64,000 bases of DNA from Candidatus Gastranaerophilales bacterium (GTDB taxonomy: Bacteria > Cyanobacteriota > Vampirovibrionia > Gastranaerophilales > Gastranaerophilaceae), in NCBI GenBank assembly GCA_944324435.1, contig CALUWH010000004.1, forward strand, positions 1-64,000, given 5' to 3'. The notes beneath the pieces were generated by a model that made no database searches, was not told the origin of the DNA, and worked only from the letters and a program-made list of their open reading frames with translations. Shown here in pieces: positions 45,322 through 50,275 of this stretch. The first letter of the stretch is position 1, and each line of letters opens with the position of its first letter. A program made the translations under genes and the position numbers.

Positions 45322-45394
45322 CGCGCCCTGAAGGACTCGAACCCTCGACATCCGGTTTTGGAGACCGACGTTCTACCAACTGAACTAAGGACGC
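45322..45394 (-). tRNA. trnW: tRNA-Trp (CCA)
   Basis: A 73-nt cloverleaf on the minus strand. The acceptor GCGTCCT pairs with AGGGCGC, the D arm has AGTTGGTAGA, the anticodon loop is CTCCAAA (anticodon CCA), and the T loop is TTCGAGT. The 3' CCA is not encoded. It sits between rpmG and secE, the usual place in many bacteria. Confidence 0.96.
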
Positions 45395-45871: not shown

Positions 45872-45900
45872 TTGATTTTATCAATTTTGTTAAATATAAT
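45872..45900 (+). promoter_or_regulatory. Promoter of the restriction-modification cassette
   Basis: TTGATT at 45872-45877, a 17-nt spacer, and TATAAT at 45895-45900. The predicted +1 near 45907 falls just inside the ATG at 45905, which argues for translation from GTG 45953 behind AAAGGAGAGG. Confidence 0.65.
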
Positions 45901-45952: not shown

Positions 45953-47005
45953 GTGAAGCAGCAGTTAAATGTATTAGATCTTTTTTGCGGTGCAGGTGGT
46001 TTATCCTGCGGTTTTGAGCAAGCCGGCTTTAATATAATACTAGGTATTGACAATGATGCTGCAGCACTGGATACATTTCAATATAATCATAAAGATTCGC
46101 AAATTCTATGCAGCGATATTACTCAAATTTCGTACAAAGATATAAAAGAGAGCATTGGCAATAAACAGATTGATGTAATTATAGGCGGACCGCCCTGTCA
46201 AGGGTTTTCTCTATCCGGACCTCGGAATTTCAATGATCCCAGAAATAAATTATATCTAAGTTTTATCAGATTGGTTGAAGAAATCAAGCCCGGAGCTTTT
46301 GTCATAGAAAACGTTCCAGGGCTGGTATCTCTATTTGGAGGTGAAGTTAAAAATAATATAGTAAAAAGTTTTGCAGATATGGGGTATCGTGTAGCATATA
46401 AAATATTGTGTGCTGCCGATTACGGAGTCCCTCAAAATCGTAAAAGAGTTATTTTTGTAGGCATTTTGAACGGGAATAAGGACTTCGATTATCCTAAAGC
46501 TGAAAATAATATTGTAACCTGCGAAATGGCGTTATCAGACTTACCGCCTTTAACAGAGAGTTTAGGAGAAGAATTGCAAGATTATACGACTCCGGCACAA
46601 AATAAATATCAGTCTGTTATGCGCAAAAATTCTCAAAAAGTTAAAAATCATATAGCCGCCCGACATTCTGATAAAGTGCAGCATATTATATCGTTAGTTC
46701 CTGACGGCGGAAACTACAAGAATTTACCGGACAAATACAAGTCAACAAGGAATTTTCATGTTGCCTGGACAAGATTTAACAGTTCGCTGCCGGCACCTAC
46801 GATTGACACCGGACACAGACACCATTTCCATTATAAATATAATCGAGTTCCGACTGTAAGAGAATGTGCAAGACTGCAGTCTTTTCCCGATAACTTTGTT
46901 TTTTGCGGCAGCAAAACCCAGCAGTTCCGCCAGGTTGGAAATGCTGTTCCGCCGCTTTTAGCTCAAAAAGTCGCAGAACAGCTTCGTAAAGAGATGGGAG
47001 TGTAA
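45953..47005 (+). CDS. C5-cytosine DNA methyltransferase 1
   Basis: About 350 residues. Motif I is D-L-F-C-G-A-G-G near the start and motif IV is G-G-P-P-C-Q-G-F-S (catalytic Cys about 82). Motif VI is E-N-V-P-G-L, VIII Q-N-R-K-R-V-I-F-V-G, IX R-E-C-A-R-L-Q-S-F-P and X Q-V-G-N-A-V-P-P. It protects host DNA by making 5-methylcytosine. The frame opens at 45872, but GTG 45953 has a strong ribosome site 6 nt upstream and lies downstream of the promoter. It is followed 6 bp later by the nuclease gene. Confidence 0.93.
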   Translation: MKQQLNVLDLFCGAGGLSCGFEQAGFNIILGIDNDAAALDTFQYNHKDSQILCSDITQISYKDIKESIGNKQIDVIIGGPPCQGFSLSGPRNFNDPRNKLYLSFIRLVEEIKPGAFVIENVPGLVSLFGGEVKNNIVKSFADMGYRVAYKILCAADYGVPQNRKRVIFVGILNGNKDFDYPKAENNIVTCEMALSDLPPLTESLGEELQDYTTPAQNKYQSVMRKNSQKVKNHIAARHSDKVQHIISLVPDGGNYKNLPDKYKSTRNFHVAWTRFNSSLPAPTIDTGHRHHFHYKYNRVPTVRECARLQSFPDNFVFCGSKTQQFRQVGNAVPPLLAQKVAEQLRKEMGV

Positions 47006-47011
47006 GCTAAA

Positions 47012-48463
47012 ATGGGTATTTATAGAATTCCTGATGAATACTATTTCAGACTGCATCATGTCCGGCCGCGCTTCAAAAATGATGTTGAAAATGTACTTAT
47101 ATATATGGCGGAAGAATTATCCAGAATTGATTCCGCACCTAAAAAAGAATTTATAAAGTCAATGAATAATGCCATATACTGCTATCCGGGAAATGCAAAT
47201 AAGCAGTTAAAGACTATTAATAATTGGCGTACAGAAATTTCTGCTTTATTTGGATTTATTGTATATAAAAACGATAATTATTGTGTAGGGAAAAGGGCGA
47301 AAGAACTTGCTGAAAAACAAGATTTGGTAGAAGCTTTTAAAATATTCTTGTATAATTTTCAATACCCCGGCGCGCATATTAAGCCCAAAGCTGTTATTGA
47401 ACAAATTCAGCACGGAATACATTTTAAGCCTGCTCAATATATATTGAAACTCTTGAAGTATGCCTCAGAACTTGAGAAATGTTCAATAGGAATAACCAAA
47501 GCGGAAGCGTGTCATTGTATATTCAATGATTTGCGAGTAACCTGTCATAATGAAGATGTAAGTCTGACCTGGAATAGAATTCTAAAGAACAGGCAGAATA
47601 ACATTTCTTATGACTGTGATGGTGATATAGTCCGCTACGCCGGCGACATTTTAGATTATATGGAAATTGCTAACCTTGTAAAAACATACGACAGCAAGAC
47701 ATACTATTTAAATTCATTAGAAAATGAGATGATTATGAAATTCTGTGAGTCTAATGAATGGTTTTCAGGTTATGATGATATGCTAAAAGAGCGCAACGCT
47801 ACACTTAAACAAGTACAGGCATGTACAAACAGCTGGTTTGATTATGTTAACAGAGATATGTCAAGCACGGATTTTTCAACTGATATTTTAACGTTTATTG
47901 CCCAAAATAATAATGATTATAACCATCTGCTTGACTCTGCTGCTCGATTTGAACAAGACAAGTCCATAACCGAAAAAATAATTACAAACAGGCTTAATAA
48001 TGAATATGAAACATTTACAACTAAGGACATCGGCGATATTGGCGAAAATCTTGTTCACGGGCACGAATGTATGCGCCTTAAAAAGAGCGAACGCAGTGAT
48101 TTAATCCATCTAGTCCAACGTATTCCTACCAAATTCGCAGTCGGATATGACATTAGTTCTGTTGAAACAGATGAAAGAAAAAGATTTATTGAAGTAAAAA
48201 CGACAATCTCATCAAAACCGCTGAACTTTAACCGTATTCATCTGACAAAAAATGAGTGGAATACGGCTGACAGTACAAGAGAACGTTACTTTATATACAG
48301 ACTTATGCTAAGTAAAAATAAAAGGACATTATTTTTAATTCAAGATCCGGTAGGCCTGTATAAGACCGACAAAATTGATATGATTCCGTGTGACGGGGCA
48401 GATATTATATTTGATCCAAAAAAAATAGGACAATTTGAGGAGCTTTTAACATGGGAAAATTAA
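47012..48463 (+). CDS. Type II restriction endonuclease with DUF3883-like PD-(D/E)XK domain
   Basis: A 483-residue protein. The N-terminal 300 residues are helical and possibly winged-helix, with no sharp match. The C-terminal domain has G-E-N-L-V near 340, G-Y-D-I-S-S (Asp380) and F-I-E-V-K-T-T (Glu394, Lys396), the layout of DUF3883/PD-(D/E)XK nucleases. It lies between two cytosine methyltransferases: 6 bp after the first and overlapping the second by 13 bp. The recognition site is unknown. A regulatory or Type IV role is less likely given the flanking methyltransferases. Confidence 0.8.
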   Translation: MGIYRIPDEYYFRLHHVRPRFKNDVENVLIYMAEELSRIDSAPKKEFIKSMNNAIYCYPGNANKQLKTINNWRTEISALFGFIVYKNDNYCVGKRAKELAEKQDLVEAFKIFLYNFQYPGAHIKPKAVIEQIQHGIHFKPAQYILKLLKYASELEKCSIGITKAEACHCIFNDLRVTCHNEDVSLTWNRILKNRQNNISYDCDGDIVRYAGDILDYMEIANLVKTYDSKTYYLNSLENEMIMKFCESNEWFSGYDDMLKERNATLKQVQACTNSWFDYVNRDMSSTDFSTDILTFIAQNNNDYNHLLDSAARFEQDKSITEKIITNRLNNEYETFTTKDIGDIGENLVHGHECMRLKKSERSDLIHLVQRIPTKFAVGYDISSVETDERKRFIEVKTTISSKPLNFNRIHLTKNEWNTADSTRERYFIYRLMLSKNKRTLFLIQDPVGLYKTDKIDMIPCDGADIIFDPKKIGQFEELLTWEN

Positions 48464-49413
48464 GGGTAGCATCACTTTTTTGCGGCTGCGGAGGAACAGA
48501 TATTGGTCTGCTTGGAGATTTTACTTTTTTAGGAAAATATTATTCACCAAATAATACCCAAATAGTTTATGCAAATGATATAGAGCCTTCTGCCTGCAAA
48601 TTATTTGAAGATAATTTTGGAATCACTCCTGATAACAGAGATATTCGGGAGGTTAAATCATCTGAGCTGCCCGAATTTGATATATTAACAGGCGGTTTCC
48701 CCTGTCAGTCTTTTTCTATTGTGGCACAAAATCCCAAAAGATTAGGCATAAAAGACGAAAAAGGAAAACTTTTTTTTGAAATGTGCAGGATTTTAAACGA
48801 CAGACAACCTAAAGCTTTTGTCGCGGAAAACGTAAAGGGAATTTTGTCGGCGAACAAAGGAGAGGCTTTTCCCTTAATAATTAAAGAATTTGAACAAGCA
48901 GGATACAATGTAGTTTATAAATTAGTAAATGCCGCAAATTACGGAGTTCCGCAAAAGAGGGAGAGAGTTATTATTGTAGGAATCAGAAAAGACTTGAAAA
49001 GACAATTTGTATTTCCTGAAGAACCTATATTAGCAGAAGAAAATTTTGTACCGTTAAAAAGTGTCATAGAGCAGAAGGTCTCTGAGAAATATTATTTTAG
49101 TGAACGAGCAGTTTCAGGATTAAAGAATGCAAATAAGAATATGAATAAGGGGCGTGCTCAAGATATTGAAAAACCCTGTAATACAGTAGGTTCACATCTT
49201 GCTAAAGTTTCGTTAAACAGTACAGATCCGGTCTTACTCATAAAAAACAGGTACAGACGTTTTACCCCAAGAGAAGTTGCCCGGATACAATCATTTCCGG
49301 AAAATTATAAATTGTCATATTCAGAAAGCGCGCAGTACCGCGCATTAGGAAACGCAATTGCTCCTCTGGTAATGTGGTATATTGCAAGAGATCTTGCAGG
49401 CATGATTGAATAA
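48451..49413 (+). CDS. C5-cytosine DNA methyltransferase 2
   Basis: A 320-residue protein. Motif I is S-L-F-C-G-C-G-G, IV G-G-F-P-C-Q-S-F-S (Cys85), VI E-N-V-K-G-I, VIII Q-K-R-E-R-V-I-I-V-G, IX R-E-V-A-R-I-Q-S-F-P and X L-G-N-A-I-A-P-L. Its target region differs from that of methyltransferase 1. The gene overlaps the nuclease end by 13 bp, with GAGGAG upstream of the ATG inside that gene. Two C5 enzymes around one nuclease suggest an asymmetric recognition sequence needing separate methylation of each strand. Confidence 0.93.
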   Translation: MGKLRVASLFCGCGGTDIGLLGDFTFLGKYYSPNNTQIVYANDIEPSACKLFEDNFGITPDNRDIREVKSSELPEFDILTGGFPCQSFSIVAQNPKRLGIKDEKGKLFFEMCRILNDRQPKAFVAENVKGILSANKGEAFPLIIKEFEQAGYNVVYKLVNAANYGVPQKRERVIIVGIRKDLKRQFVFPEEPILAEENFVPLKSVIEQKVSEKYYFSERAVSGLKNANKNMNKGRAQDIEKPCNTVGSHLAKVSLNSTDPVLLIKNRYRRFTPREVARIQSFPENYKLSYSESAQYRALGNAIAPLVMWYIARDLAGMIE

Positions 49414-49426
49414 TCACTACATATAC

Positions 49427-49460
49427 AAAAACGGACAGTAATTTTAAACTGCCCGTTTTG
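49427..49460. terminator. Bidirectional terminator between the RM cassette and tpiA
   Basis: AAAACGG-A-CAGT pairs with ACTG-C-CCGTTTT across an 8-nt loop, with one mismatch. A and T tracts on both sides suit termination in either direction. Confidence 0.75.
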
Positions 49461-49480
49461 TGTATTAATTATTTTCAGCG

Positions 49481-50275
49481 TTATACGCTTACTTTCATTG
49501 TATTTGCAATAATTTCGTTAAAGCTGTCAGCTTTAAGGCTAGCGCCTCCAACCAATGCTCCGTCAATATCAGATTGAGACATTTGTTCTTCTATAGTTGA
49601 AGGTTTAACTGAACCACCGTAAAGAATTCTTATAGAATCGCCTGCTTTTTCGGAAGAAACCTCTTTTACAACATTTCTAATCATAGCAATTACTCTGTTG
49701 GCTTCCTGACTGTCACAGGTTTTTCCTGTACCGATAGCCCAAATTGGTTCGTAAGCAATAACGGATTTAGAAATTTCTTCTTCTGATAAACCATTTAACG
49801 CAGCTCTGATTTGGGTTGCAATATGTTGATCAGTTACGCCGGCTTCTCTTTGTTCCAGAGTCTCTCCGCAGCAAATAATAGGAATCAAACCGCCTGCAAG
49901 AATTGCTTTAGCTTTCTTGTTAATCATCTCATCAGTTTCTGAGAAATATTGTCTTCTTTCACTGTGTCCGATAATGATATAAGAACATCCAGCATCTGCA
50001 AGCATTTCAACAGAAACTTCTCCTGTATAAGCACCGGATTTTTCCCAGTGACAATTCTGTGCAGCAATTGCAATTTTGTCTCCGCCGCATCCGCAATTGC
50101 ATCTTTCGGTTTGAACAACATTTAGTGAAGTAAACACAGGTGCAATAACAATAGAAGGTAATTGTTGTGCCGTAAAATCTTTTGTAAAGCTTTTTATTCC
50201 TTCAAACAAAGCTTTTGCCTCGTCTTGCAATAGATTCATTTTCCAGTTGCCTGCAATAATTGGTTTTCTAGACAT
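49481..50275 (-). CDS. tpiA: Triosephosphate isomerase
   Basis: A 264-residue protein: A-G-N-W-K-M-N at 8-14, the electrophile in I-I-G-H-S-E-R-R, and the catalytic Glu in A-Y-E-P-I-W-A-I-G-T-G. A short Cys-rich insertion (R-C-N-C-G-C-G-G-D near 58-66) is unusual for the family. It interconverts glyceraldehyde-3-phosphate and dihydroxyacetone phosphate. AAAGGAG precedes the ATG. Single-gene unit. Confidence 0.97.
   Translation of the reverse strand: MSRKPIIAGNWKMNLLQDEAKALFEGIKSFTKDFTAQQLPSIVIAPVFTSLNVVQTERCNCGCGGDKIAIAAQNCHWEKSGAYTGEVSVEMLADAGCSYIIIGHSERRQYFSETDEMINKKAKAILAGGLIPIICCGETLEQREAGVTDQHIATQIRAALNGLSEEEISKSVIAYEPIWAIGTGKTCDSQEANRVIAMIRNVVKEVSSEKAGDSIRILYGGSVKPSTIEEQMSQSDIDGALVGGASLKADSFNEIIANTMKVSV

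Follow-up and report, generated by a model that had tools for sequence, protein, structure and literature searches.

BpuJI, a Type IIS restriction enzyme of Bacillus pumilus, recognizes CCCGT, and its nuclease domain is related to the archaeal Holliday junction resolvases. FauI and SmuI are commercial enzymes that cleave approximately 6 nt from their site. Among residues that contact DNA, Arg often reads G and Gln often reads A. In BpuJI, N67 and Q208 are required for DNA binding (PMC9240713). The Type IIS enzymes FauI (Flavobacterium aquatile) and SmuI (Sphingobacterium multivorum) share the site CCCGC (PMC4309577). The MFRE-Seq paper mentions CCCGC solely in connection with Arthrobacter citreus, where it is the form of a CCGC motif that can be cleaved. 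An asymmetric pentamer, GACGC, is the target of LlaJI from Lactococcus, a system with two 5mC methyltransferases encoded in one operon (PMC1459862).

The locus analyzed here lies in a 64,000-nucleotide stretch of DNA from a Candidatus Gastranaerophilales bacterium (the window). At 45953-49413, it encodes a C5 methyltransferase M1, a nuclease R, and a C5 methyltransferase M2 on the same strand. It resembles LlaJI in the two-5mC-MTase operon and the asymmetric pentamer, as inferred for M1-R-M2, but LlaJI restriction takes two McrBC-related subunits, whereas here a single 483-aa BpuJI_N + NOV_C protein is present. The recognition domain of R shares its Pfam family and fold with that of BpuJI, aligns with it at E=9e-15, and keeps N67; R differs from BpuJI by an Arg in place of Q208, by the inferred site CCCGC, and by a C-terminus that is a NOV_C domain. 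The first-pass annotation of this DNA had named a close match to a characterized enzyme as counting against its reading; none was found, R being approximately 23-24% identical to BpuJI over the recognition domain. FauI and SmuI were compared with R by site only, and the literature on both enzymes yielded the site, the source organisms, and slippage but did not identify the proteins. Members of the R family occur in the source genera of these enzymes, Flavobacterium (L022, L055) and Sphingobacterium (L058), and homology of FauI and SmuI to the R family is a lead only.

Organization of the Cassette

The features of the region are as follows:

45872..45900, + strand: promoter-like match TTGATT-17-TATAAT, 5' of M1 (motif scan vs. 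shuffles)
45953..47005, + strand: M1, C5 methyltransferase (PF00145, E=1.1e-80; PADLOC MTase_II, E=4e-126)
47012..48463, + strand: R, Type IIS-like restriction endonuclease, 483 aa, BpuJI_N + NOV_C
47021..47839, + strand: R residues 4-276, BpuJI-type DNA-recognition domain (PF11564, E=4e-101)
48044..48334, + strand: R residues 345-441, NOV_C/DUF3883 PD-(D/E)XK nuclease domain (PF13020, E=4e-14)
48451..49413, + strand: M2, C5 methyltransferase, 320 aa (PF00145, E=9.5e-78)
49421..49465, unstranded: terminator-like hairpin between convergent M2 and tpiA (-16.9 kcal/mol, z=-5.4)

The gene order MTase-PD-(D/E)XK protein-MTase given by the first-pass annotation was recovered as three ORFs, and both the 6-bp gap between M1 and R (47006-47011) and the 13-bp overlap of R and M2 (48451-48463) proved exact. 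The closing terminator that it had proposed is matched by the terminator-like hairpin lying ahead of the converging tpiA. As to the cassette's own promoter, the match upstream of M1 does exist, but the region, with 20 matches of this type, is not enriched over shuffled sequence (15.5 ± 4.0 expected), so TTGATT-17-TATAAT is only a plausible promoter of M1. M1 starts with GTG closely preceded by a strong Shine-Dalgarno sequence, AAAGGAGAGG; in-frame alternative starts lie upstream at 45872 (TTG) and 45905 (ATG).

M1 and M2 are indeed two different C5 enzymes, as had been claimed, matching the Pfam DNA_methylase family with E=1e-80 and 1e-77, respectively, and both retain intact catalytic motifs (motif I (LFCG), PC, ENV, and Q.R.RV). 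The best relatives of M1 with a solved structure are 3g7u and M.HaeIII, and the nearest one of M2 is M.HhaI (E=3e-39).

The homology to same-genus genomes ends on the left at approximately 45785 and restarts on the right at 49481. Examination of relatives showed no case of secE next to tpiA and gave no clean empty site. Since the two genes were not seen as neighbors there and the homology stops at approximately 45785, the cassette appears to occupy a variable junction. A tRNA-Trp gene (45322-45394) is located between secE and the L33-like ORF adjoining the cassette.

Domain Architecture of R

The 300 N-terminal residues of R, described as unrecognized in the first-pass annotation, turned out to be assignable, with residues 4-276 matching BpuJI_N. 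An AlphaFold model of R, built from 49 sequences (the plasmid-record row was left out of the locus-protein alignment), reached a mean pLDDT of 88.8 and a pTM of 0.82. Structure prediction, which had been suggested as a check on the nuclease, placed the BpuJI recognition domain at the top of the PDB fold matches: the four best were crystal structures of this domain (TM 0.81-0.86 of target), and the Foldseek comparison of the model with 5hnf/2vla gave E=1e-14 to 4e-14 and TM 0.84-0.86 of target. Hence, the N-terminus of R belongs to the BpuJI-type recognition family PF11564 by both sequence and fold.

The C-terminus matched NOV_C, in agreement with the earlier description of a DUF3883-type PD-(D/E)XK nuclease. 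For the nuclease part, all fold matches were weak; they were to PD-(D/E)XK enzymes such as the D212 nuclease and an archaeal Holliday junction resolvase. The linker between the two domains (residues 314-335) was modeled with low confidence. E345, D380, and E394-V-K396 of the NOV_C domain are invariant in 80 of 80 aligned relatives; D380, E394, and K396 make up the predicted NOV_C/DUF3883 PD-(D/E)XK active site. The BpuJI_N + NOV_C architecture was common to R and all 48 aligned relatives.

The residue equivalent to N67 of BpuJI is N71 in R, and it is Asn in all 80 aligned relatives. The position of Q208 is occupied by R208, an Arg in all 80 relatives as well; judging from the alignment, we take this exchange as a putative specificity difference from BpuJI.

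The Family of M1-R-M2 Loci

The family comprises 85 related loci, of which 80 come from genomes, three from viral contigs, and two from plasmids. Its hosts belong to Bacillota, Bacteroidota, Pseudomonadota, Campylobacterota, Omnitrophota, Cyanobacteriota, several candidate phyla, and archaea. The order M1>R>M2 on the same strand was kept in 79 of the 80 loci holding all three genes, so the linkage is far above chance; the possibility that the genes would prove unlinked in relatives, raised at the outset, is excluded. The pairwise distances in the M1, R, and M2 gene trees correlated (Pearson 0.71-0.84), as expected for genes travelling together. The tree neighbors of the window cassette were another Gastranaerophilales cassette and gut Clostridia, and among the 97 genomes searched around the host, the cassette was found in one, the host's own. 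This grouping and the single occurrence make horizontal transfer of the cassette among gut bacteria likely.

Several variants of the locus were observed. An apparent M1-R fusion, an 835-aa ORF, is encoded in two Prevotella-group genomes (L021:4891-7398 and L029:4888-7395), and the former host is CCCGC-depleted (0.25). On the Photobacterium damselae plasmid NZ_CP146977.1 (L004:4385-12518), both MTases point away from R, whose recognition and NOV_C parts are separated by an insert with a recombinase gene. In four loci (L045, L046, L076, and L082), R is broken or shortened while the adjoining MTase genes are still present. A search for a BpuJI-type protein within the family, directed at a Bacillus host, turned up a single match, weak and partial (L171).

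Recognition Site

Because Arg stands in place of BpuJI Q208, the last pair of the site was guessed to be C:G and the site to be CCCGC; this guess was recorded before any counting. The host sample was approximately 455 kb, the counts were made on 374 kb of coding DNA, and the expectation was derived from synonymous-codon shuffles. CCCGC occurred 34 times vs. 212.8 expected (0.16) in the host and 193 times vs. 143.8 expected (1.34) in the same-genus genomes without the cassette. The host-vs.-congener differential (log2 -3.03) was the largest of 512 pentamers, the next one being -0.87. All eight one-base extensions of CCCGC were depleted alike in the host (0.11-0.22), so the site is 5 bp long. 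Two same-genus controls, G033 and G052, were also CCCGC-low (0.40 and 0.32, on small counts). CTCGC and CCCAC, the deamination products of CCCGC, were enriched only slightly in the host; the site loss can stem from 5mC deamination, selection against cutting, or both.

A similar loss was visible in the cassettes themselves. In 253 cassette genes, CCCGC was present at 0.37 of the expectation from synonymous-codon shuffles, and when each of the three genes was analyzed on its own (83-87 copies each), no other of the 512 pentamers was depleted as strongly. Among other hosts, CCCGC was low in Moraxella atlantae (0.18 vs. 0.62 in congeners), Bacillota S11_Bin2 (0.16 vs. 0.78 in congeners), Prevotellaceae (0.25), and Pasteurellaceae (0.35). 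In both M. atlantae and S11_Bin2, a few other pentamers differed more, and these sets resemble those of CCGG and GATC systems. Of the 20 host genomes in the sample, roughly half showed no clear CCCGC loss (e.g., 0.94 in Maribacter and 1.25 in S. sanguinis). Recent acquisition is the simplest account that fits these hosts; inactive or different-site members are also possible.

Altogether, depletion in host genomes and cassettes points, indirectly, to CCCGC as the sequence recognized by the cassette. The earlier suggestion that the specificity may be new was therefore not upheld, as the same site is known from FauI and SmuI (PMC4309577).

The next most differential depleted pentamers of the host relative to same-genus genomes were GCCAC/GTGGC (0.33 vs. 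0.60) and GGACC/GGTCC (0.39 vs. 0.71).

Alternative Explanations

The homology of the recognition domain to that of BpuJI, with the equivalent of N67 conserved, would speak for CCCGT, the site of BpuJI, as the target of the Type IIS system, and this pentamer is slightly underrepresented in the host (0.72 vs. 1.20 in same-genus genomes), where some relaxed reading of the last site base is possible. However, CCCGT was undepleted in the cassette genes (0.96), Moraxella (0.88), and Prevotellaceae (1.20), all of them depleted of CCCGC; the window cassette contains three ACGGG and neither CCCGC nor GCGGG; and the Q208 position is invariably Arg in the relatives. The pentamer counts went against CCCGT as the site, and a system reading it is highly improbable. 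We consider it very unlikely, too, that the CCCGC loss in the host is due to another system or to base composition while the cassette targets something else. Such a view draws on other pentamers, e.g., GATC-containing ones, being low in many genomes as well, and on a congener of S11_Bin2 (G421; L233, L234), in which CCCGC was reduced to 0.04 (4 vs. 108.6 expected) though neither a match to R nor a near match to M2 was found there. Depletion alone is thus no proof of cassette presence; in G421, the system may have been lost, the gene may be unassembled (missing contig), or another system with the same site may be present. Against a foreign cause stands the loss inside the M1, R, and M2 genes at more than 80 loci as well as in several unrelated hosts. 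Moreover, the one-letter neighbors of CCCGC (CCCGA, TCCGC, ACCGC, and others) were undepleted in the host, save for the mild CCCGT loss, and no C5 MTases other than M1 and M2 were found in the host genome, the site being free of adenine on either strand.

The presence of NOV_C/DUF3883 in other defense proteins, including the PADLOC candidates PD-T4-1, TmtA, and PDC-S36, could be read as a sign that R is a modification-dependent (Type IV-like) nuclease and that the MTases serve epigenetic marking. This view is scarcely credible: R is tied into a single operon with two MTases and carries a BpuJI domain that reads sequence, and a methyl-dependent nuclease cutting at that site would turn on the DNA of its own host.

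Discussion

The cassette is very probably a complete and active Type IIS-like restriction-modification system with the asymmetric target 5'-CCCGC-3'/5'-GCGGG-3'. The site deduced from depletion is asymmetric, as is typical of Type IIS recognition, and the operon supplies two distinct, intact C5 MTases. Type IIS systems usually have two MTases, each serving one strand, and a distinct nuclease domain that cuts outside the site. As CCCGC/GCGGG is non-palindromic and without adenine on either strand, protection of both strands needs two cytosine specificities. The Type IIS interpretation put forward in the first-pass annotation has thus gained support in its asymmetric site and its one C5 MTase per strand; its unrecognized N-terminus did not stand, and the specificity does not appear to be new.

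In the proposed mechanism, M1 and M2 would each methylate one cytosine on one strand of CCCGC/GCGGG, and replicated host DNA would be re-protected on both strands by their joint action. R would bind the unmethylated site in foreign DNA via the BpuJI-type two-winged-helix recognition domain and cut near it with the C-terminal NOV_C PD-(D/E)XK nuclease, two R nuclease domains probably pairing before the cut. We infer that the system is active at present; the strand served by each MTase, the methylated base, the cleavage distance, and R dimerization are predicted features of this scheme. R208, corresponding to Gln in BpuJI, would be what turns CCCGT into CCCGC. A broader proposal, to which we give somewhat less than even weight, holds that BpuJI-type domains with Gln208 read CCCGT and those with Arg208 read CCCGC, that the nuclease has been exchanged (for NOV_C), and that the modules evolve independently, the last base being set mainly by one residue.

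The CCCGC specificity was already known from FauI and SmuI, and the useful results are the family-wide site assignment and the BpuJI_N + NOV_C architecture. They provide a supported site for a widespread, loosely annotated "DUF3883" restriction family whose members occur in archaea and candidate phyla as well as in gut bacteria. They also tie a recognition domain of solved structure to a second specificity, which renders the one-residue specificity hypothesis directly testable. Finally, site loss within the cassette's own genes, viewed over many copies, can expose, from sequence alone, the target of an uncharacterized 5mC restriction system.
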